Shown: one piece after another, positions 7,287 to 25,363 of the stretch
Numbering within the stretch: the stretch's first letter is position 1
How the letters are laid out: the number at the start of each line of letters is the position of its first letter
DNA from: a virus
Length of the DNA stretch: 25,363 nt
Reading direction: 5' to 3' (one strand)
IMG/VR virus record: IMGVR_UViG_3300030388_000598
Coordinates: 1-25,363 of that record
The notes under the pieces: generated by a model
Told to the model about the DNA's origin: nothing
Seen by the model: the letters and a program-made list of their open reading frames with translations, nothing else
The model's database searches: none
Program-made: the position numbers and the translations under genes

Positions 7287-7315
7287 CATAAATTATTTTT
7301 ATTATGGAAAAATTT
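7287..7315 (+). repeat. Direct repeat, copy 1 (leader and start of MEKF gene 1)
   Basis: A 29-base stretch that covers the A/T-rich translation leader, the ATG and the first codons is identical to 7612-7640. The homology therefore extends from the coding start into the non-coding leader, as expected from gene duplication including the ribosome-binding region. Confidence 0.85.
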
Positions 7316-7597
7316 TTAAGCATACCTGTAACTTCACAAGGAAACCAGTTAGTTCCTGTTACAGATTTAAAACTAATTGAAGCGGCAACGGTTACTACTT
7401 CTACACTAACATACGGTAGCGGAAAGGTGACTACAATTACTCATGCAACAGTAGGTGCAGCGTCAGCAACAAACTCAGGGACACAGTTCAGAAGATGGCT
7501 ACAACAAAATGCTACAGAAGCATTGGCTACGTCTTGGACTAACGCTTCCTATGAGGCTATACCTGAGTATGCAGTTTCAGATATCACTATAGCATAA
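7304..7597 (+). CDS. MEKF-family small protein 1 (probable capsid decoration protein)
   Basis: First of four tandem paralogues. The 97 residues start MEKFLSIPVTSQGNQLVPVT. A beta-like core follows (TSTLTYGSGKVTTITHA), then a helix with the family motif ALATSWT, and the end is SDITIA. No signal peptide, membrane segment or cysteine is present. The other members (7629, 7982, 8831) share the MEKF start, the hydrophobic beta strand, the A/S-L-x-T-x-W motif and usually a short aliphatic end. The family lies between head and connector genes and has its own promoter and terminator. A small, abundant virion protein such as a decoration or cement protein is my inference; the molecular role is not shown by the sequence. 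Confidence 0.75.
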   Translation: MEKFLSIPVTSQGNQLVPVTDLKLIEAATVTTSTLTYGSGKVTTITHATVGAASATNSGTQFRRWLQQNATEALATSWTNASYEAIPEYAVSDITIA

Positions 7598-7611
7598 CAT
7601 TATTATTAACA

Positions 7612-7640
7612 CATAAATTATTTTTATTATGGAAAAATTT
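7612..7640 (+). repeat. Direct repeat, copy 2 (leader and start of MEKF gene 2)
   Basis: Identical over 29 bases to 7287-7315, again covering the leader, the ATG (7629) and the first codons of an MEKF gene. The two coding regions diverge soon after it. Confidence 0.85.
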
Positions 7641-7979
7641 CTAAGTATCCCAGTATTAGATGGTCATGGGACAAATAGTCAAGATCAACTGGTATCAGTT
7701 ACAGGAATCCTAAGCATAGGACAGCCTACTACATCTAGTGCTACTATTAATTACATTGGAGGAAAGGTGGTTACCTTACAGTGGCCAAATCAATTTCCTT
7801 CTCCAATTCTTAAGGAGGCAATTCAGACAGCCTCTATGAACGCATTAAAATCAGGATGGACTTCGGTTTCCGACTACTACGCTCCGAAAGGAATGGTGGC
7901 TGGGGCAGCAGTAAACTCTAGTACAGAGCCTAACTCATTCTTAAATACTAACCCGCTTACATCAATTGTAATAGCTTAA
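7629..7979 (+). CDS. MEKF-family small protein 2
   Basis: Second paralogue, 116 residues, beginning MEKFLSIPVLDGHGTNSQDQ. It keeps the family plan: an N-terminal strand, LVSVTGILSIG, a second strand region SATINYIGGKVVTLQW, a helix leading to ALKSGWT (ALATSWT in copy 1), and an aliphatic end SIVIA. It is about 20 residues longer than copies 1 and 4. The additions are a short loop near the start and a Ser/Asn-rich stretch before the C-terminus. It lies 31 bases after gene 1 with a duplicated leader, so it is almost certainly co-transcribed. Probably a small virion surface protein, by context. Confidence 0.75.
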   Translation: MEKFLSIPVLDGHGTNSQDQLVSVTGILSIGQPTTSSATINYIGGKVVTLQWPNQFPSPILKEAIQTASMNALKSGWTSVSDYYAPKGMVAGAAVNSSTEPNSFLNTNPLTSIVIA

Positions 7980-7981
7980 TT

Positions 7982-8803
7982 ATGAACACTAACATGGAAA
8001 AATTTATAAACTTTAAACAACTTGATGTTGTTAAGACGGGAACATCTACAGCAAATGGTGATGCTTCTTTAACATTAACCGATAGTGCTGCGGTTTTTAC
8101 ACAGCTTGTATTGCCTCATGCTATTGTATGGGATAGAACTACAGACAGAAAGTACCTTGTAACAGCAGTAACTTCAGACACAGTTTTGGCTCTTGAGTCT
8201 ATAGGTGTGGATACTGGTACAGGTATCCCAGATGCAACTGCTTACTTTATCTATATGCCAGAGTATACTGTGAGACAAGCAGGGACTGCTGACGGAACAG
8301 GAAGTTTTCAGTTGATTGATACTGGGGTAGACTTTGTAACTGCTGGTGTAAAGGTAGGGGACTATGCTTTAGATATAACAGCGGCTGTAACAGCTAAGGT
8401 AACTGCGGTGACGCCTACTATCTTAACGGTAGACACAGACACATTTTTAGGTGGAGATGCCTACTTAGTGTACAGCGAGGGTGCTAATGACCTTGACGTT
8501 ATAATGAGGTCTGCTGACGTTGCTGACGTTTCAAATGCTGCAACAGATTCTTCTATTGTCAACGTTACCTATGAGTCATCAGTGTCATCAGTGGTAAAGA
8601 TTGATTACGCATACTCTTCTACTGTTGGAAGTAATTCTGATATGAGGGGTGCTGTTCAAGATGCTATAGTAGAATCACTAGAGACTGCATGGCCAAATGT
8701 AACATATGACTTTCCAGGACTTTTAAACCCTGCCGTTGCTGTTACTAATGCAACCTGGCTTGGTGGAAGAAATTATTTCTTCTTACGGATACAGAAAGTA
8801 TAA
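7982..8803 (+). CDS. MEKF-family protein 3, enlarged by two inserted beta modules
   Basis: Third paralogue, 273 residues. The family N-terminus MEKFINFKQL begins at residue 5, so the true start may be the ATG at 7994 rather than 7982. The family C-terminal half (VVKIDYAYSSTVGSNSD through SLETAWPNVTYDFP) appears only after about residue 200. Between them lie two related modules of about 70 residues (18-91 and 98-164). Each runs Gly-Thr ... Asp-x-x-x-x-Phe-Thr ... Val ... Leu-Val/Lys-Val-Thr-Ala-Val-Thr ... Asp-Ala-Tyr-(Phe/Leu)-(Ile/Val)-Tyr. The protein is therefore a small domain interrupted by a beta insertion, which would project if the family coats the capsid. The predicted start lies 2 bases after the previous stop. 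Function is inferred from the paralogues. Confidence 0.75.
   Translation: MNTNMEKFINFKQLDVVKTGTSTANGDASLTLTDSAAVFTQLVLPHAIVWDRTTDRKYLVTAVTSDTVLALESIGVDTGTGIPDATAYFIYMPEYTVRQAGTADGTGSFQLIDTGVDFVTAGVKVGDYALDITAAVTAKVTAVTPTILTVDTDTFLGGDAYLVYSEGANDLDVIMRSADVADVSNAATDSSIVNVTYESSVSSVVKIDYAYSSTVGSNSDMRGAVQDAIVESLETAWPNVTYDFPGLLNPAVAVTNATWLGGRNYFFLRIQKV
8033..8473 (+). repeat. Tandem beta modules inside MEKF protein 3
   Basis: Protein-level repeat: copy 1 at about 8033-8254 and copy 2 at about 8273-8473. Shared features in order are an N-terminal Gly-Thr/Asn-Gly segment, Leu-x-Asp-(Ser/Thr)-x-x-x-Phe, a strand ending at a Asp/Thr turn, (L/K)VTAVT, and DA-Tyr-(F/L)-(I/V)-Tyr. Similar modules are visible at 9539-9769 and 12818-13039 in other virion genes. 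Confidence 0.6.
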
Positions 8804-8830
8804 CTAAAAAAAATATAAAATTATAAAAAA

Positions 8831-9109
8831 ATGGAAAAATTTATCAAGGTTACAAATGCTCCTATCACTAATCAATTGATTAGTCTTAACGGAATAAAAT
8901 CAATCGCTACAGCAAATGCAACAGCAACTACTGTTGTTGTTAAGTACGTGGACGGAACTGCTACTACGGTAACAACTGCTGTTCAGGTTGCTCATGATGT
9001 GTACACATCTATACTAGATGCTGCTGCGGAAGCGTTATCTACAAGCTGGACAAAACCAATGTACTCTCTTGCTTTACCTAAGGCTGTGACAAGCATTTTA
9101 AATGCTTAA
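8831..9109 (+). CDS. MEKF-family small protein 4
   Basis: Fourth paralogue, 92 residues, beginning MEKFIKVTNAPITNQLISLN. It contains the strand ATTVVVKYVDGTATTVTTA, a helix with ALSTSWT and the end VTSILNA, so it is closest in size and pattern to copy 1. The leader before the ATG is almost pure A/T (aaaattataaaaaaATG), with no Shine-Dalgarno sequence. A strong hairpin terminator follows 26 bases after the stop, closing the array. As with the others, a small abundant capsid-surface role is an inference from position and tandem expansion. Confidence 0.75.
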   Translation: MEKFIKVTNAPITNQLISLNGIKSIATANATATTVVVKYVDGTATTVTTAVQVAHDVYTSILDAAAEALSTSWTKPMYSLALPKAVTSILNA

Positions 9110-18235: not shown

Positions 18236-18245
18236 TTATCTTTGT
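18236..18245 (+). promoter_or_regulatory. Promoter element directly before the acetyltransferase gene
   Basis: Third copy of the 10-mer TTATCTTTGT (TATCTTTG at 18237-18244). It ends only 5 bases before the ATG at 18250. A Bacteroidetes -7 box places the transcription start a few bases downstream, so the transcript would begin at or next to the start codon, essentially leaderless. A -33 element is not clear. Lying in the 20-base gap between two genes, it probably serves the acetyltransferase and the genes after it. Confidence 0.6.
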
Positions 18246-18249
18246 GGTA

Positions 18250-18660
18250 ATGAACTTAAACATTATACCACTAAAAGAATCAGACTACGACAATATACTG
18301 TGTGGTTGGTGGACAGATTGGAGGTGGACACCTCCGTCTAGAGACTTTTTACCTGACAATGGTAAGGGTGGTTTTATAGTTTACGATGGGGATACACCTG
18401 TGTGTGCAGGCTTTATGTATGACACAAACTCAAAGGCTGTGTGGTGTGACTGGATAATATCTAACCTACACTATACGAACAGGCAGAGAAGAAAGGATGC
18501 CTTGGAGATGTTGGTCAGTAAGATAAGCAACGAGGCAGCCTTGTTAGGTAAGAAATATATCTACGCATTAATTAAGAACCAGCCACTAATAAACACGTAC
18601 AAAAAAGTAGGTTTTGTTGAGGGCAGTTCTTACACAAAAGAAATGATAAAAAAATTATAA
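18250..18660 (+). CDS. GNAT-type N-acetyltransferase
   Basis: Small protein of 136 residues that fits the GNAT acetyl-CoA transferase fold. It opens with a strand NIIPLKESDYDNI, followed by CGWWTDWRWTPPSRDFLPDN, a Trp-rich segment I recall from acetyltransferases of marine phages. A beta meander GGFIVYDGDTPVCAGFMYDT comes next, then a central helix ALEMLVSKISNEAALLGKKY, and the end ALIKNQPLINTYKKVGFVEG is typical of the GNAT C-terminus (strand, then Tyr-x-x-x-Gly-Phe). A canonical RxxGxG/A loop is not obvious, so substrate and activity are open. ATG 18250 is preferred over an in-frame GTG at 18244, which lies inside the promoter box. It ends 1 base before the next gene. An enzyme among virion genes suggests a modified virion or host target. 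Confidence 0.8.
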   Translation: MNLNIIPLKESDYDNILCGWWTDWRWTPPSRDFLPDNGKGGFIVYDGDTPVCAGFMYDTNSKAVWCDWIISNLHYTNRQRRKDALEMLVSKISNEAALLGKKYIYALIKNQPLINTYKKVGFVEGSSYTKEMIKKL

Positions 18661-19424: not shown

Positions 19425-21230
19425 ATGGCAAATCAATTTTCTAAAAAACAAATAGACTTTGATGTTTACGAGAGAGCAAACCCTGAGTCACAGGTAGATT
19501 GGTCTCAGGCGGCTAAAGACATTACTGATAAATTTGAAACCATACGTGACGATAGACAGACACGTAAGGATGATTTACTTAAGTCATACCAAGAACAGCA
19601 GGAGGAGTTAAATAATTTAGGTGAATACGACAGCCCCACTACCCAACAGTTAGTGATGAATGCTGGGTCGGACGCAGCAGAAAAAATGACAAACTATAGG
19701 GACCTTATGACTCGTGGACTTGTTAAGCCTTCTGACATGAATATGTTTGAACATAATGTAAGCTCAGGTTTTACCCTACTTAAAAAGAATGCACTTGCTT
19801 ACGACACGTTATTCAAGGAGGTTGCCCTTCGTACTAAGGAAGGAGATAACTCAGCCACTGAGCAGTGGAGGACTACACTTCTTGAAAGCTTTGGTAGACT
19901 AGAAAACGCTCAGATACAGACAAACCCAGAGACAGGTGCACTATCGTTTCTTAGAGTTGAGCCACCTTTTAAAACAGATGAGTCTGGTAATAAAGTTAAG
20001 AACCCAAACGCAGGACAGCCAGTGGAAGGGGGTAGCATGAGCCTACAGCAGATGACACTGTTAATGAAACAGAAGACTGACAGTATTGATATAGAGAAAA
20101 AAATAAAAGCTATAAAAGACAACCTTGGGGACATTGTTCTAGCGAGCACTGGTCAACAAGGACGTAAGGGAACAGTAAGCACCGTAGAGATGAGTAGGTT
20201 AGAGACACAGTTCTTTGAGTCTCCTGAAGGAAAAGAATACTTAAGACTTAAGGCAAGTGAGCTGCAGGTTGGTGAAGATGCTGCTACGTTAATAACTCAG
20301 ACTAACCAAGTAAATTCTAATGGTGAGAATTTTAAACCAGGTACTGAGGATGAGCATAAGAAATGGGAAGAGGATAACAAGGATAAGGGCACTACTACGT
20401 TTGATGTTCCTGCCCTTAAAGATAAGTCGGAGGGAGATGCCTTTAGACAGTGGGTTAATAATAACTACGCTCAGTACGCACAGGACAATGACCTAGACCC
20501 GTCAGGATCTTTTGATAACGAGTTTATTAATGAGGCATACAGTAAGTACGGTGAGGAGTATGCTCGTGATGTGTTAAAAATTGAGGGTACCACAACAAAA
20601 GCTGTCAACCCTGTACTTATTCAAAACTTTGAGAACCAGTCGTATACAACTGACCTTACTCCTGAACAAAGGGGTGTGTCTGATAAGGTCGCTATGGACC
20701 AGGTAACGATAGCATTAGACTACAAGGAGAAGGTTGCAGTTAGTTACAGGTCTCCAAACCCTAGAAGTCCTGGTATTCAAAAATGGCAATGGGATGCACA
20801 ACAAGACGCAAAGCAGTATAGAACATATGCGGAACTTACAGACGCATATGACTTAGCAAAGAAAAGCCTACAAAAGGGATATTCATTAACAGCTGAAGAG
20901 GAAACTATACTACAAGAGAGTTTAACAGCATTAGCTGGACAATCTGATAACGCCATGGATATAGAGTTTAATGAGGATGAGGAAGTGTTTGTTATTATAG
21001 GTGGTGATAATGCTGGTGAGACAATTAGTTTTAAAGATCCTGATTCTAAAAAATATTTAGCTCAGTATGTTTACGGTACTTCTGAAGGTGGGAAACAAGA
21101 GTATGAGTTATATGAAGAAGAAGAGAAAAAATATAATGCAGCCGAGAAAAAAAATAATGCAGCCAAGAAAAACAATAAAGCAGCTCCCAAGAAAAAGAAA
21201 AAGAAAAAACTTAACGGGCAAAAAACGTAA
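19425..21230 (+). CDS. Helical internal virion protein (T7 gp15-like in position) with Lys-rich tail
   Basis: 601 residues, mostly predicted helix, with high Gln/Asp/Glu/Lys. The start MANQFSKKQIDFDVYERANP leads into long helices (KDITDKFETIRDDRQTRKDD, about 27-46). The middle is soluble and acidic (EDEHKKWEEDNKDKGTTTFD near 300), with LTPEQRGVSDKVAMDQVTIA near 415. The end is low complexity: repeated (N)NAA/KAA units and a run of lysines before LNGQKT (about 565-601). No membrane segment or catalytic motif is visible. It lies 13 bases after the small internal protein and 9 bases before the giant gene, in the place of the middle ejected protein of T7-type phages. The lysine tail suggests contact with DNA. 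The functional label is inference. Confidence 0.6.
   Translation: MANQFSKKQIDFDVYERANPESQVDWSQAAKDITDKFETIRDDRQTRKDDLLKSYQEQQEELNNLGEYDSPTTQQLVMNAGSDAAEKMTNYRDLMTRGLVKPSDMNMFEHNVSSGFTLLKKNALAYDTLFKEVALRTKEGDNSATEQWRTTLLESFGRLENAQIQTNPETGALSFLRVEPPFKTDESGNKVKNPNAGQPVEGGSMSLQQMTLLMKQKTDSIDIEKKIKAIKDNLGDIVLASTGQQGRKGTVSTVEMSRLETQFFESPEGKEYLRLKASELQVGEDAATLITQTNQVNSNGENFKPGTEDEHKKWEEDNKDKGTTTFDVPALKDKSEGDAFRQWVNNNYAQYAQDNDLDPSGSFDNEFINEAYSKYGEEYARDVLKIEGTTTKAVNPVLIQNFENQSYTTDLTPEQRGVSDKVAMDQVTIALDYKEKVAVSYRSPNPRSPGIQKWQWDAQQDAKQYRTYAELTDAYDLAKKSLQKGYSLTAEEETILQESLTALAGQSDNAMDIEFNEDEEVFVIIGGDNAGETISFKDPDSKKYLAQYVYGTSEGGKQEYELYEEEEKKYNAAEKKNNAAKKNNKAAPKKKKKKKLNGQKT
21115..21227 (+). repeat. Low-complexity Ala/Asn/Lys tail
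   Basis: The coding end of the 19425 gene repeats units of the form KYNAAEKKNNAAKKNNKAAP, followed by seven lysines. In DNA this is a purine-rich A-tract region that may be unstable in length. Confidence 0.7.
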
Positions 21231-21239
21231 CTCAAAAAT

Positions 21240-24200
21240 ATGAACGAAGAATTTCAACAGCTATACGATTATATTAAGTCTCAGGACATGACGGACTTAA
21301 GTGAGCAAGAGTTTTATGATGCTTACAGTAACCCTGAAAGTGCCTCTGAACTTTTTGGGTATATAAGTTCTGAAGACATGACGGACTTAAATGAACAAGA
21401 ATTTTTCTCTGCATACTTTAGCGGAGGCGTTGAAAAAAAAAGTCCAAATGGTACTTCAGAAGAGGAAGTTACGGAGTCCGTTACAGAAACAGAGACGGTT
21501 CCTACTGGCTCATCGGATTCTTCAGGTCAAGGCAGTAGCTTTTCCGCTTCAGATTTTGTAGCTAAGGATACTGCATTTGAACAAGGGTTTCAGTCAGAAC
21601 CTGAAACCGAACAGGATACAAGTGAGTTCGCAGGTATAATGACAGACAGAGAGTCTGAACAACAGAGAGCATTTAAGGAAGACTTTGACACTAGGGAGTT
21701 TACAGAGGAGGAGCAAGTAAGTCGTGACGAACAAGATGTTATACCTTTATCTGATCTTACACCTAGAAAATATACTGACGCTGCGGGAAATGTTTTTGAA
21801 GGAAAAAGTATTGATGAGGCAAGGAAGGTAAAGGAAATAGCAGAGAGAGGTAGAGAAGAAGAGAAGCCACTAAGTGCAGAGGAAGCATTAGATAAAAATA
21901 ATTTTCTTGAGGGCATAGACAGAAACTTTATAGTAGATAATAGTGCTGATGAAATAGCTGAGTCACTAAGAAAAAAATATAGTGACAAAAGTTTTGTGTT
22001 TACTACTGATGGAGATATTCTTACAGTAACATCAGAGTATGATAAAAAAGGTATAACACTAGACCTAGGTGTGGGGGAAGTGTTCTCAGACCGAGGAGCA
22101 TTATCTGATATATCAGATAGAATAAACCCAGGTATTTCAGTGATAGGTAAAATAGCTCGTGGTATAGATTATATCAGTGGAGAGGCTAGTGAACAACGTG
22201 ACATTCAAGTAGACCTTTTACGTAACTTCCTGTATGATAACCAATCAATTTCAGAGGGTAAGAGTAGTGACGAGGTACTAAGCCTTATGCGTAAGGGTAG
22301 GCAGAAGTCTGTTAGCCCTGAAGAGTATAAGAAGTATAGCACAGAAATAGAAACTAAAATAACAAACTTACGGGAGACAGAGAATAGTATTGCTGAATCA
22401 TTTAACAACTTAAATAAAATAATCCAAGAACAAGGGGGTGGTACACCTGAACAACTTAAGGAGCTTAATTCTATAAGACAAAGTTATATAGACAATAAGA
22501 AAAACATTAAGGAAAACTACGAGATACAAAAAGATATAAACAATGCAGTCGGAATAAGTATTGACCAAAATATAAGACGTAAAGAAAAACTCGGAACAAC
22601 TACTGGTGCCTTGGGTAATAAATTATTAGCAGGTATAGAAAATATACCTAGTGGGCTAGGAACTTATGCGGCTACCTTTGAGTCAGTGAAGGATGATTTA
22701 AAAAAAATGTTATCGTCTCAAGTATTAAAAGTTGTTTATGGAGAAGATTCAGAAAAGGCTATTGAAGCTGTAGATCAGTTGTTTAAGTCTAGGGATATTA
22801 ATAGAAAGGATGCTATAGTAAGGTTCAGGGAAATTGTAAAGGGTTCATTAGTAGATGCTATAGGTTCATCTACAACTAAAGAGTATACAGAGTCCGAGGA
22901 TAGAGGCACCTTAATGCAGGCAGCTATGGGTGTAACGGAGTCACTTCCCGCTATGGCAATGACAGCAGTAAGTGGTGGTGCTGGATTTGCAGCTATGGCC
23001 GCACAGTCTTTTGATGCTGTAGCTGAGGAATGGGTAAACAACCCTGAGTTTGAGAACATGCCACTACGTGACTTGTTTATAGTTGGTGGAGGGATTGGTG
23101 TAATACAAGGCCTACTTGAGAGAGCTGGTCTTAGTTCTTTACTAAGCAAAAGCCCTGTAGGTAAGTCGTTTACCAATAAGGTTATGAGTAACGTTATGGG
23201 TAAGGTTACTAAGAAGACAACTTCCGCACAGTTTTCAAAATTAATAAGTGCAGAGACTAACAGCCTACTTAAGAATGGTGTTGTTAAAATAGTGGGGGGT
23301 ATGCTAGTTGAGGGCGAGACGGGTGCCTTACAAGAGGTGTCTGATGTAGTCATAAAAGAAATATATAACTGGAGTAAGGGGGAATCTATTTTCGCTACCC
23401 CTGAAACGGGATGGGACTTTTTATTACAGGTAGGTGAGGCATCATTAATGGAAGCCGTTGGTGGCGGAATGATCAAGGGTGCTATGGTTGCACCTCAAAT
23501 GGTATCTAGGGGTTACGCTGGTATAGGGATGAAGAAGGATATGTTTGATGCACTTCACTTTATGTCAGACTCTCCTGATATGCGTAGCAACATGGCTAAG
23601 ACTTTGAAGATGGAAATCTTACAAGGAAGGATGACTAAGCAACAGGCTTTAGAGACTATGGAGTCCTTTGAGGTTATGACGGGGGTCATGAATGAAATAC
23701 CAGGTAGTATAAATAAAAAGGGTGAGGCCTTCGACCTTATACTAGAAAAGAATAGAATAACACAAGAGATACAGGGAAAGTCCCCTGAGTTAGTTGCAAA
23801 AGAAACCAACAGAATAAAAGAAATAAACGATGCCCTTATTAACTTAGCTACTCAAACTGAAGTAGTAGAGGAAACTGAAATTACAGAAGCTCCAGTAGCA
23901 GAGGAAACTCCACTAGGAGAGGAGGCTTCAAAGGAAGTAGAGAAGGATATTATAAACCAATTCTCTAACCTAAAGGGAGAGCTAGAGTTAGAGAACGCAT
24001 CTAACTTTAATGAGGCAGGAAAGAAGGCTGCTAGGGGTGAGTCCCTGAATGAGGCAGAGATAGATAATGCTATAGATGAGGGGTACAAGGCCTTAATAAA
24101 TCTAGAGAATGAGAAGGGTTCAGAGGTAGAAATAATAAAAGAATTAATAGAAGATCAAATACAAATTTTAGAAGGCTATGACAATATCACAACGACTGAG

Positions 24201-25363
24201 ACTAGAACAGTTACCGAAGAACGTACAAGGAAAGTTTCTAAGAAAACTAAAAGAAAGACAGTCCCAAGGAAAGAAAAAAACTTTGTCGGACAAAAAGTAA
24301 ACTTCACTGACAATAAAGGTGACGGGGCTAGGGGTACTATAACTATATCCGAAGGTCCTGACGGAAGAGAATACTACGTACTAGAGAGTGCAAGTGGGGA
24401 GCAGAAGGTTATATTAGGTGACAGGAGTAAGGCTTTTAAAGATGGTGTTGTTAACTTCGATAAGAACAACAACCCTGTTAGTGTAACATTCACTAACAAC
24501 TCTGGACTGCAGTCTACTATAAAGTCTCCGCAGATAGCTGGAGAAGTTTTACAGGAGCAGACTATACAAGAGGAGTTCGATGAAGAAATATTTACAGAGG
24601 TCTACACCGAAGTAGTTGGAGAAGAAAATATTGAAGTACCAAAACCTAAAACTAAAACAGATGCCATTCCAAAGCAAAGCACAGAGACGGTGGATGCACA
24701 AGAATCTACCAGAGATAGCAAGTCGGTGGGAGAAAGAGACGTCAAGTCCACAGACACTACCCAGCAGGAAACAACCGAAGAAGACAACGAGGCTCGTTCT
24801 AAAAAAACAACGGAGGAGAAAATAGACTCCCTTGTTGAGAGGTTCTCACCGAAGACGGAGGAGGCACCAGCCAAGACACGTAAGCAGAAGCAGAAGACAG
24901 AACGTCAGGTCGATAACGCTAAGAAGGCATTAGCTAAGGTGGCACCTGAGGTGGAGATAGTGGTACACGAAACTGATGCTGCGTACAGGGAGGCTACGGG
25001 TGAACAAAATAGAAACCAGTCTACTAACGGAGCGTACAATCCCCAAACAAAGGTTATTAACATAAACCTATCTAAGTCACAGGAGAACACTGTGGCACAC
25101 GAGGTGTTCCATGCACTGCTCTTGAGTAAGGGTATGACTAACGCTCAGGCACAGGCAGTAACGGAGCGTATGCTTGCCGCAGTAAGAAAGGTTGCTTCGC
25201 CTGATATGTTAGTTGAGCTAGATAAATTTGCAGCTACGTATCCACAGGGGTTATATAGTGAGGAGAGTATAGCTGAGTTGTTTGGTATACTGGCGGCAGA
25301 GTTTGATACGCTACCTAAACCTACACAGACACTGATTAAGAAGTGGCTTGACAGACTGGCTAA
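21240..25363 (+). CDS. Giant ejected/polyvalent virion protein with metallopeptidase motif (3' end outside window)
   Basis: The frame is open from ATG 21240 to the last base (1374 full codons, no stop), so the protein is longer than 1374 residues. Parts in order: a tandem 30-residue repeat (residues 2-61); an acidic Ser/Thr/Glu linker (to about 230); long helices (about 300-440); Gly/Ala hydrophobic segments (VTESLPAMAMTAVSGGAGFA near 565, LFIVGGGIGVIQGLLERAGL near 613, VKIVGGMLVEGETGALQEVS near 683); more helices and Glu-rich linkers; a small beta domain (NFVGQKVNFTDNKGDG near 1015); a basic linker; and the zincin motif HEVFH at residues 1287-1291 (25098-25112), with a downstream EESIAELFG that could give the third ligand. 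This matches giant internal virion proteins that are injected with DNA and the 'polyvalent' proteins carrying peptidases. The exact role is inferred. Confidence 0.8.
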   Translation, partial: MNEEFQQLYDYIKSQDMTDLSEQEFYDAYSNPESASELFGYISSEDMTDLNEQEFFSAYFSGGVEKKSPNGTSEEEVTESVTETETVPTGSSDSSGQGSSFSASDFVAKDTAFEQGFQSEPETEQDTSEFAGIMTDRESEQQRAFKEDFDTREFTEEEQVSRDEQDVIPLSDLTPRKYTDAAGNVFEGKSIDEARKVKEIAERGREEEKPLSAEEALDKNNFLEGIDRNFIVDNSADEIAESLRKKYSDKSFVFTTDGDILTVTSEYDKKGITLDLGVGEVFSDRGALSDISDRINPGISVIGKIARGIDYISGEASEQRDIQVDLLRNFLYDNQSISEGKSSDEVLSLMRKGRQKSVSPEEYKKYSTEIETKITNLRETENSIAESFNNLNKIIQEQGGGTPEQLKELNSIRQSYIDNKKNIKENYEIQKDINNAVGISIDQNIRRKEKLGTTTGALGNKLLAGIENIPSGLGTYAATFESVKDDLKKMLSSQVLKVVYGEDSEKAIEAVDQLFKSRDINRKDAIVRFREIVKGSLVDAIGSSTTKEYTESEDRGTLMQAAMGVTESLPAMAMTAVSGGAGFAAMAAQSFDAVAEEWVNNPEFENMPLRDLFIVGGGIGVIQGLLERAGLSSLLSKSPVGKSFTNKVMSNVMGKVTKKTTSAQFSKLISAETNSLLKNGVVKIVGGMLVEGETGALQEVSDVVIKEIYNWSKGESIFATPETGWDFLLQVGEASLMEAVGGGMIKGAMVAPQMVSRGYAGIGMKKDMFDALHFMSDSPDMRSNMAKTLKMEILQGRMTKQQALETMESFEVMTGVMNEIPGSINKKGEAFDLILEKNRITQEIQGKSPELVAKETNRIKEINDALINLATQTEVVEETEITEAPVAEETPLGEEASKEVEKDIINQFSNLKGELELENASNFNEAGKKAARGESLNEAEIDNAIDEGYKALINLENEKGSEVEIIKELIEDQIQILEGYDNITTTETRTVTEERTRKVSKKTKRKTVPRKEKNFVGQKVNFTDNKGDGARGTITISEGPDGREYYVLESASGEQKVILGDRSKAFKDGVVNFDKNNNPVSVTFTNNSGLQSTIKSPQIAGEVLQEQTIQEEFDEEIFTEVYTEVVGEENIEVPKPKTKTDAIPKQSTETVDAQESTRDSKSVGERDVKSTDTTQQETTEEDNEARSKKTTEEKIDSLVERFSPKTEEAPAKTRKQKQKTERQVDNAKKALAKVAPEVEIVVHETDAAYREATGEQNRNQSTNGAYNPQTKVININLSKSQENTVAHEVFHALLLSKGMTNAQAQAVTERMLAAVRKVASPDMLVELDKFAATYPQGLYSEESIAELFGILAAEFDTLPKPTQTLIKKWLDRLA
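21243..21422 (+). repeat. Tandem 30-residue repeat at the start of the giant protein
   Basis: Copy 1 (21243-21332) reads LYDYIKSQDMTDLSEQEFYD and copy 2 (21333-21422) LFGYISSEDMTDLNEQEFFS. The shared pattern is (L)xxYIxSxDMTDLxEQEFxxAY. A stretch of 16 bases, GACATGACGGACTTAA, is identical in both copies. Confidence 0.85.
25098..25112 (+). other. Zinc metallopeptidase active-site motif HEVFH
   Basis: HExxH with preceding VA and following ALL (VAHEVFHALL), the helix of a zincin-type peptidase. Two His ligands and the catalytic Glu are present. A Glu in the downstream EESIAELFG is a candidate third ligand. The window ends about 80 residues later, so the domain's end cannot be seen. Confidence 0.75.

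Follow-up and report, generated by a model that had tools for sequence, protein, structure and literature searches.

A giant polyvalent-type protein of a flavobacterial phage with a doubled, exchangeable N-terminal tag, a proposed docking partner in the preceding gene and a predicted zincin domain

Two kinds of described system come closest to the gene treated here. The first are the polyvalent proteins, in which metallopeptidase (MPTase) domains are the commonest domains and for which self-processing or action on host proteins has been proposed (Iyer et al., 2017; PMC5512222). The second is the internal core of phage T7, where gp15 forms an octamer and four gp16 chains are visible, the N-terminal part of gp16 stitching together and stabilising the C-terminal regions of gp15 (PMC8954989). 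How phages select and load large injected proteins is poorly known. Here we describe a gene at the 3' end of a viral DNA stretch of 25,363 nucleotides (the window), which comprises bases 1-25363 of the 25,748-base IMG/VR record IMGVR_UViG_3300030388_000598. The open frame of an initial annotation, without a stop from 21240 to the end of the window and with HEVFH at 25098-25112, is confirmed; it lies on the forward strand, starts with ATG and has 1,374 codons (21240-25361). By homology, it encodes the beginning of a very large flavobacterial phage virion protein, presence in virions having been shown only for relatives. The giant with its peptidase represents a new family of a known kind, such polyvalent proteins having already been described; the more unusual features, which the initial annotation lacked, are the duplication of the N-terminal tag, a proposed partner for it at the 3' end of the gene in front, and a poly-A run.

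A short element stands in two copies at the start of these giants: of 101 distinct N-termini, 63 have a self-similarity at the lowest p value that the shuffle test allows, and in the first set doubling was found in 40 of 66 N-termini as against 1 of 66 control segments. The elements vary among phages (ELDEFGIP, FVPPSDAV, KPWEKY, helical-looking units of about 28 residues), and most copies are not recent duplicates, because codons agree at only 59% of the residues that are identical between them; no further copies were found in other parts of the same phage. Tag type covaries with the C-terminal residues of the upstream protein, as indicated by a partial Mantel test over 84 loci in which the joint behind the tag, the bodies of the giant and of the upstream protein and the segment before the C-terminal end were controlled for (r=0.52, p=0.0005). 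Where bodies are similar, C-terminal ends (C-ends) match in 12 of 16 pairs with the same tag against 0 of 30 with different tags, and where they are unrelated the figures are 14 of 31 and 6 of 3,381. When only the upstream bodies are required to be unrelated, 31 of 43 pairs with the same tag share the C-end. A scan with the window's tag yielded loci L399-L401, which resemble the window in the tag alone (54% identity) and are otherwise unrelated; KKKKLNGQ closes the gene before their giant, as KKKKKKKLNGQKT does in the window, and the ending KxLNGQ occurs in no other of 11,019 open reading frames (ORFs) checked.

This pairing was also seen in held-out tests, made as new scans by tag DNA. The FVPPSDAV scan returned the predicted C-end in all eight readable distinct cases, six of them new, and the KPWEKY scan did so in 14 of 15, with giants mostly unrelated to the family of the window. 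The KPWEKY class (loci L282-L388) pairs with the C-end GYxFxGGDPxxxxxW in phages without the A-run, and none of 3,985 control ORFs has this pattern. Tag length and conserved C-end length are inversely related (rho=-0.74 over 21 non-independent pairs), in that short tags accompany C-ends conserved over about 26-39 residues and long tags mostly accompany motifs only 4-10 residues long (e.g., GNVR, LNASNRK); L012/L017 is an exception. C-ends that resemble the tags of other phages were not above chance. A paired, swappable tag and C-end was not found in the open-access literature searched, papers outside it not being covered.

The tag ends at the A-run, which within the first 390 nt is exactly A10 in 61 of 97 giants and A11 in five, while the remaining 738 kb of giant sequence hold no run of ten or more A. 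DNA identity between relatives starts exactly at this run, and in 96 of the 121 pairs that share a joint the tags are unrelated; in such swaps the end of the upstream gene is unrelated as well and the crossover is sharp, and phi13:2 and phi18:3 show a tag cassette swap between named isolates. The tag is swapped as a cassette that ends at a run of A9-A11. The run might in addition be a site of transcriptional or ribosomal slippage, from which free tag and full-length giant would arise in a fixed proportion, or it might be a switch that works by phase variation, either of which would be compatible with the docking explanation preferred below. Its narrow length range, its absence elsewhere and its occurrence in all three codon phases are in keeping with slippage, as is A9 in phi46:3, phi18:3, phi19:3, phi13:2 and Panino, where tag and body lie in different frames (e.g., L009:23119-23427, phi46:3 gp119). 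However, this split may reflect either a true frameshift or homopolymer under-calling in older isolate records, the frame is continuous in the window and most relatives, and the run is lacking in phages outside the flavophage group; we hold slippage to be possible but less likely than not. As a separate observation, in L051, L053 and L058 the peptidase frame is preceded at a distance of 3 kb by a tag-like A10 site, which would look like a giant divided between two ORFs.

The second main feature of the giant is its embedded peptidase domain. A scan with this domain of about 170 residues gave 134 viral loci, 80 of which were kept for analysis; in all 80 it lies inside a long frame, and the complete proteins have about 1,900-3,700 residues. 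Among 74 distinct sequences H1287, E1288, H1291, E1341 and E1342 are invariant, and E1346 is kept in 93%; E1288 corresponds to E1378 of the L003 giant. Because one scan pattern contained the motif, a second, motif-independent sample was taken by the C-terminal scaffold, in which 23 of 49 giants with a complete N-terminus have the domain and all 23 keep HExxH, a motif that arises by chance in 0.5% of shuffled giants. The AlphaFold2 model (mean predicted local distance difference test, pLDDT, 77) has the zincin-like order H-E-(H)-E-E-H(HExxH)-...-H(E), that is, the N-terminal helix, three strands, HExxH helix and distal glutamate helix given for the MPTase core of polyvalent proteins (PMC5512222). 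The metallopeptidase of the initial annotation has thus withstood scrutiny both of its predicted fold and of HExxH retention in relatives. The solved proteins nearest by sequence are IrrE proteins, a weak match (E=0.03). Foldseek found nothing at E<0.001 in the PDB, where the top list is mixed, with many zincins, M78-type regulators and other zincin proteases, and among viral models it lists the giant of Flavobacterium phage elemo and polyvalent proteins. NCBIfam gave no match and the Pfam cut-off of 22 for PF06114 (Peptidase_M78) was not reached (17.1 bits; 21.6 for the domain alone), so that the domain represents a zincin clade without a curated model. Conservation and model together make it very probable that this is an active zincin.

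Its role may be related to chain length. Among 34 distinct giants obtained via the C scaffold, a small sample in which phylogeny was not modelled, HExxH precedes the scaffold in all 19 long giants (at least 1,850 residues before the scaffold) and in 2 of 15 short ones (Fisher p=1e-7), and this holds when 400 residues are deducted to allow for the domain (p=1e-4). In some giants the motif is that of the window's peptidase family, and in others it is another zincin-like one (HEFSH, HEYAH, HELAH, HEVGH). Interchangeable zincins tied to long chains would fit chain processing better than one fixed host target, and the embedded zincin could, after ejection, cut the giant's own chain and free enzymatic cargo from the scaffold. 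We consider such self-processing about evenly poised, the length rule being an addition to a proposal already published. Two points count against it: some long giants without the window's peptidase family carry cargo, yet with other zincins, and the N4 virion RNA polymerase is packaged uncut (PMC5512222). A strict rule, by which the window's peptidase family occurs exactly when cargo is present, was rejected because of these cargo-carrying giants and is replaced by an association of some zincin with long chains. KKK was also rejected as a peptidase cleavage site, as it is present in phi38:1, which has no peptidase, and the A-run is kept in all codon phases.

Alternatively, the zincin may be an effector that cleaves a host protein after ejection, perhaps one with a role in defence or regulation, in the way that IrrE cuts a repressor. 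The IrrE match, the M78-type regulators and other zincin proteases in the fold list and the conflict-type domains that the domain adjoins are what an effector would lead one to expect. However, its mean identity of 0.49 is near that of the C scaffold (0.53) and far above that of its neighbours (0.21-0.32), unlike a host-specific effector in an arms race, and the substitution of other zincin families in long chains suits a generic job; we hold the effector role to be possible but doubtful. For a cell-wall target, which the initial annotation had also offered, nothing was found in support.

Returning to the tag, we regard it and the upstream C-end as a likely docking pair, by analogy with T7 gp15/gp16. 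Such a device is proposed from the contact between the gp16 N-terminus and the gp15 C-terminal region and from the two tag copies per giant. Through its doubled tag the giant would bind the C-ends of the gp15-like protein encoded before it, an arrangement that would load it on the internal core and order its exit; having two copies would agree with two partners for each giant. It is unlikely, in our judgement, that tag and C-end covary merely as neighbours in one recombining DNA cassette, without binding. The contiguity of the cassette and the sharp crossover at the A-run, also between phi13:2 and phi18:3, would be expected from linkage, but linkage predicts neither the opposite lengths of tags and ends nor a pairing that persists between phages whose sequences to both sides of it show no detectable similarity, and also where the A-run is lacking, and amino acids are conserved in both halves. 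Several observations nevertheless speak against docking: tag and C-end are adjacent on the DNA, so that linkage alone could hold them together; some tag classes have a weak C-end match or none (the L021 group, L034/L052, L083/L103, L387); and in an AlphaFold2 model of a natural read-through of one pair the C-end element is folded (pLDDT ~90) and the tag disordered (~50), with no contact between them. We find it fairly probable that tailed phages share a general docking code, in which the upstream ejection protein would end in a socket or plug, the giant would start with two matching copies, and pairs would be exchanged as cassettes, loading new cargo.

The weakest alternative, in which the zincin would mature the virion by trimming its structural proteins ahead of packaging or in the course of it, is very improbable, since, despite the cleavage of P1 DdrB before packaging (PMC5512222) and the position of the gene within the structural operon, any HExxH is missing from the homologous giants of isolates phi38:1, Panino and phi46:3 and from 13 of the 34 distinct sampled giants, so that assembly does not need the zincin. 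Overall, we lean slightly towards the view that the frame encodes the first half of a polyvalent cargo protein, about 3,000 residues long and carried by the virions of a short-tailed flavobacterial phage, in which tag docking, ejection and a zincin self-cut would act as one whole. Of the ejected protein named in the initial annotation, virion presence holds for relatives only; ejection itself, like docking and cleavage with its timing, is what we infer.

The setting of the gene is summarised with the other features in the table. The terminase, portal, capsid protein and other virion proteins of the window match PHROG families, and the order terminase-portal-capsid-tail-giant places the giant beside late virion genes. 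The portal is 68% identical to that of a Manatee Spring podovirus, 47% to that of Panino, 46% to those of Flavobacterium elemo phages and 35%, over 99% of its length, to that of Cellulophaga phi38:1; portal and gene order are common to the window and phi38:1, the two features by which likeness to Pervagoviridae-like flavophages was judged. One tail gene has a crassvirus muzzle C-terminal domain (48.6 bits against a cut-off of 27), and this domain alone passes, the Crassvirales capsid protein model PF23898 reaching 13.3 bits against 27. A small, a medium and a giant gene close the structural operon in the window, Manatee, elemo, Panino and phi38:1, and the phi18:3 counterparts of all three (gp120, gp121 and gp123) are annotated from tandem mass spectrometry (MS/MS) of virions. 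Elsewhere in the window, four consecutive small ORFs with similar N-termini (MEKFLSIPV..., MEKFIKV...) at 7304-9109 are apparent tandem paralogues between capsid and tail genes, and a small GNAT acetyltransferase-like phrog_17252 protein is encoded at 18244-18660 within the tail operon, its Manatee counterpart being annotated as an acetyltransferase subunit.

Features of the giant gene and its neighbours in the window
Feature	Position	Strand	Support
gp14-like small virion protein gene, 249 aa	18662..19411	+	phrog_13764 virion structural protein, E=1.6e-6; phi18:3 gp120 MS/MS
gp15-like ejection protein gene, 601 aa, precedes giant	19425..21230	+	gene order; 32% identity to L003 563-aa protein; phi18:3 gp121 MS/MS
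C-terminal end KKKKKKKLNGQKT of preceding gene, proposed tag partner	21189..21227	+	same end (KKKKLNGQ) before same tag class in L399-L401
Giant virion protein gene, 5' part	21240..25361	+	complete 2,940-aa homologue in L003; same gene place in elemo, Manatee, Panino, phi38:1
N-terminal tag copy 1 EEFQQLYDYIKSQDMTDLSEQEFYDAY	21246..21326	+	self-similarity p<=0.01 vs shuffles
N-terminal tag copy 2 ESASELFGYISSEDMTDLNEQEFFSAY	21336..21416	+	self-similarity p<=0.01 vs shuffles
Joint rich in Ser/Thr/Glu	21425..21531	+	96% DNA identity to L003 between diverged flanks
Run of nine A, right end of swapped cassette	21433..21441	+	exactly ten in most relatives; in frame in window
N-terminal scaffold, hydrophobic Gly/Ala stretches and GxxxEGxTExxQ-like motif	22860..23837	+	profile A6 match, residues 541-866
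Predicted zincin metallopeptidase domain, cut by contig gap	24858..25361	+	profile A4 E=3.3e-67; Pfam M78 17.1 bits (below cut-off); structure model
HEVFH, predicted zinc-binding and catalytic motif, residues 1287-1291	25098..25112	+	H, E, F, H invariant in 74 distinct relatives
EExxxE on distal helix (E1341, E1342, E1346), likely third zinc ligand	25260..25277	+	conservation; helix 135-147 of model

The hydrophobic Gly/Ala segments of the initial annotation are present but moderate, the best 19-residue Kyte-Doolittle means of 1.31 (569-587), 1.31 (608-626) and 1.14 (727-745) all lying below the usual transmembrane cut of 1.6. Pfam finds only the peptidase in the complete homologue of locus L003, the gene of the window itself being cut by the gap; 15 members of the family show LPD23, ART-PolyVal, GNAT and other domains, and the cargo in the middle of the chain includes ART-PolyVal, LPD23, methylase, nuclease and GNAT domains. 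A second zincin-like motif, HE[IVL]QH, occurs further along the giant in L022, L026, L029, L033, L039, L044, L052, L061, L063 and L078; it is probably that of Pfam LPD23, so that some giants would carry two zincin-like motifs. In L006, the Manatee Spring phage (MW202828) and closest portal relative, the giant of 3,859 amino acids (aa) has two HEFGH 885 residues apart and lacks the window's peptidase family.

The frame looked unfinished because a scaffold gap of ten N lies directly 3' of the window; the open frame resumes beyond it, up to the contig end. L003 encodes the same gene whole and has nine bases in place of the ten N, which explains the apparent frame shift across the gap. From 24641 to 25363 and on to the contig end (L002:3642-4749), DNA identity to L003 is 98%, rising to 100% from ~24817, as against about 70% outside this block and a protein identity of ~52% upstream. 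The block may be a recent recombination or an assembly join at the gap, which look alike in the sequence, and the exact peptidase sequence of the window phage therefore depends on that possible join.

A tag/C-end pair that can be read from sequence would predict loading partners and mark injected proteins in unannotated phage genomes, and would offer a means of loading laboratory phages with harmless reporters as cargo. In addition, the zincin length rule makes the old self-processing proposal for polyvalent proteins directly testable.

Finally, the family can be set beside the known systems. The link to polyvalent proteins drawn in the initial annotation is upheld as a kinship of theme: those with a zincin-like MPTase (PMC5512222) are likewise giant and encoded near virion genes, with a mid-chain zincin of HExxH and glutamate, and their multidomain build recurs in relatives of the window's giant, which have LPD23, LPD38 and ART-PolyVal, whereas a term search of that paper's text found neither a doubled swappable tag nor the poly-A run. 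With IrrE and M78 peptidases the domain of the window aligns over the HExxH helix and the preceding strand; unlike them, it falls below the Pfam cut-off, and no helix-turn-helix or sensor domain was found. The T7 trio gp14-gp15-gp16 has the same small-medium-large order at the end of the structural operon, and in it the C-terminal region of gp15 contacts the N-terminal region of gp16. A giant virion protein does stand in the place of gp16, but the "T7 gp16-type" label of the initial annotation is an analogy from gene order and T7 a functional model only, because no sequence kinship with T7 proteins was detected, the N- and C-scaffold profiles matching no T7 chain in the PDB; the window-type giant is also more than twice the size of gp16, with peptidase and cargo added and no transglycosylase domain found. 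The giant of phage elemo (3,694 aa) has the same gene place and the same peptidase family (40% identity, HEIFH) but an extra DUF3293 domain and no recognisable tag doubling. The giants of phi38:1 and phi46:3 lack HExxH, unlike that of the window, whereas phi38:1 gp99-gp100-gp101 (Pervagoviridae) and phi18:3 gp120-gp123 (Pachyviridae) share with the window the gene order, a related portal and the doubled tag with its A-run, and in phi18:3 the giant body is present in virions.

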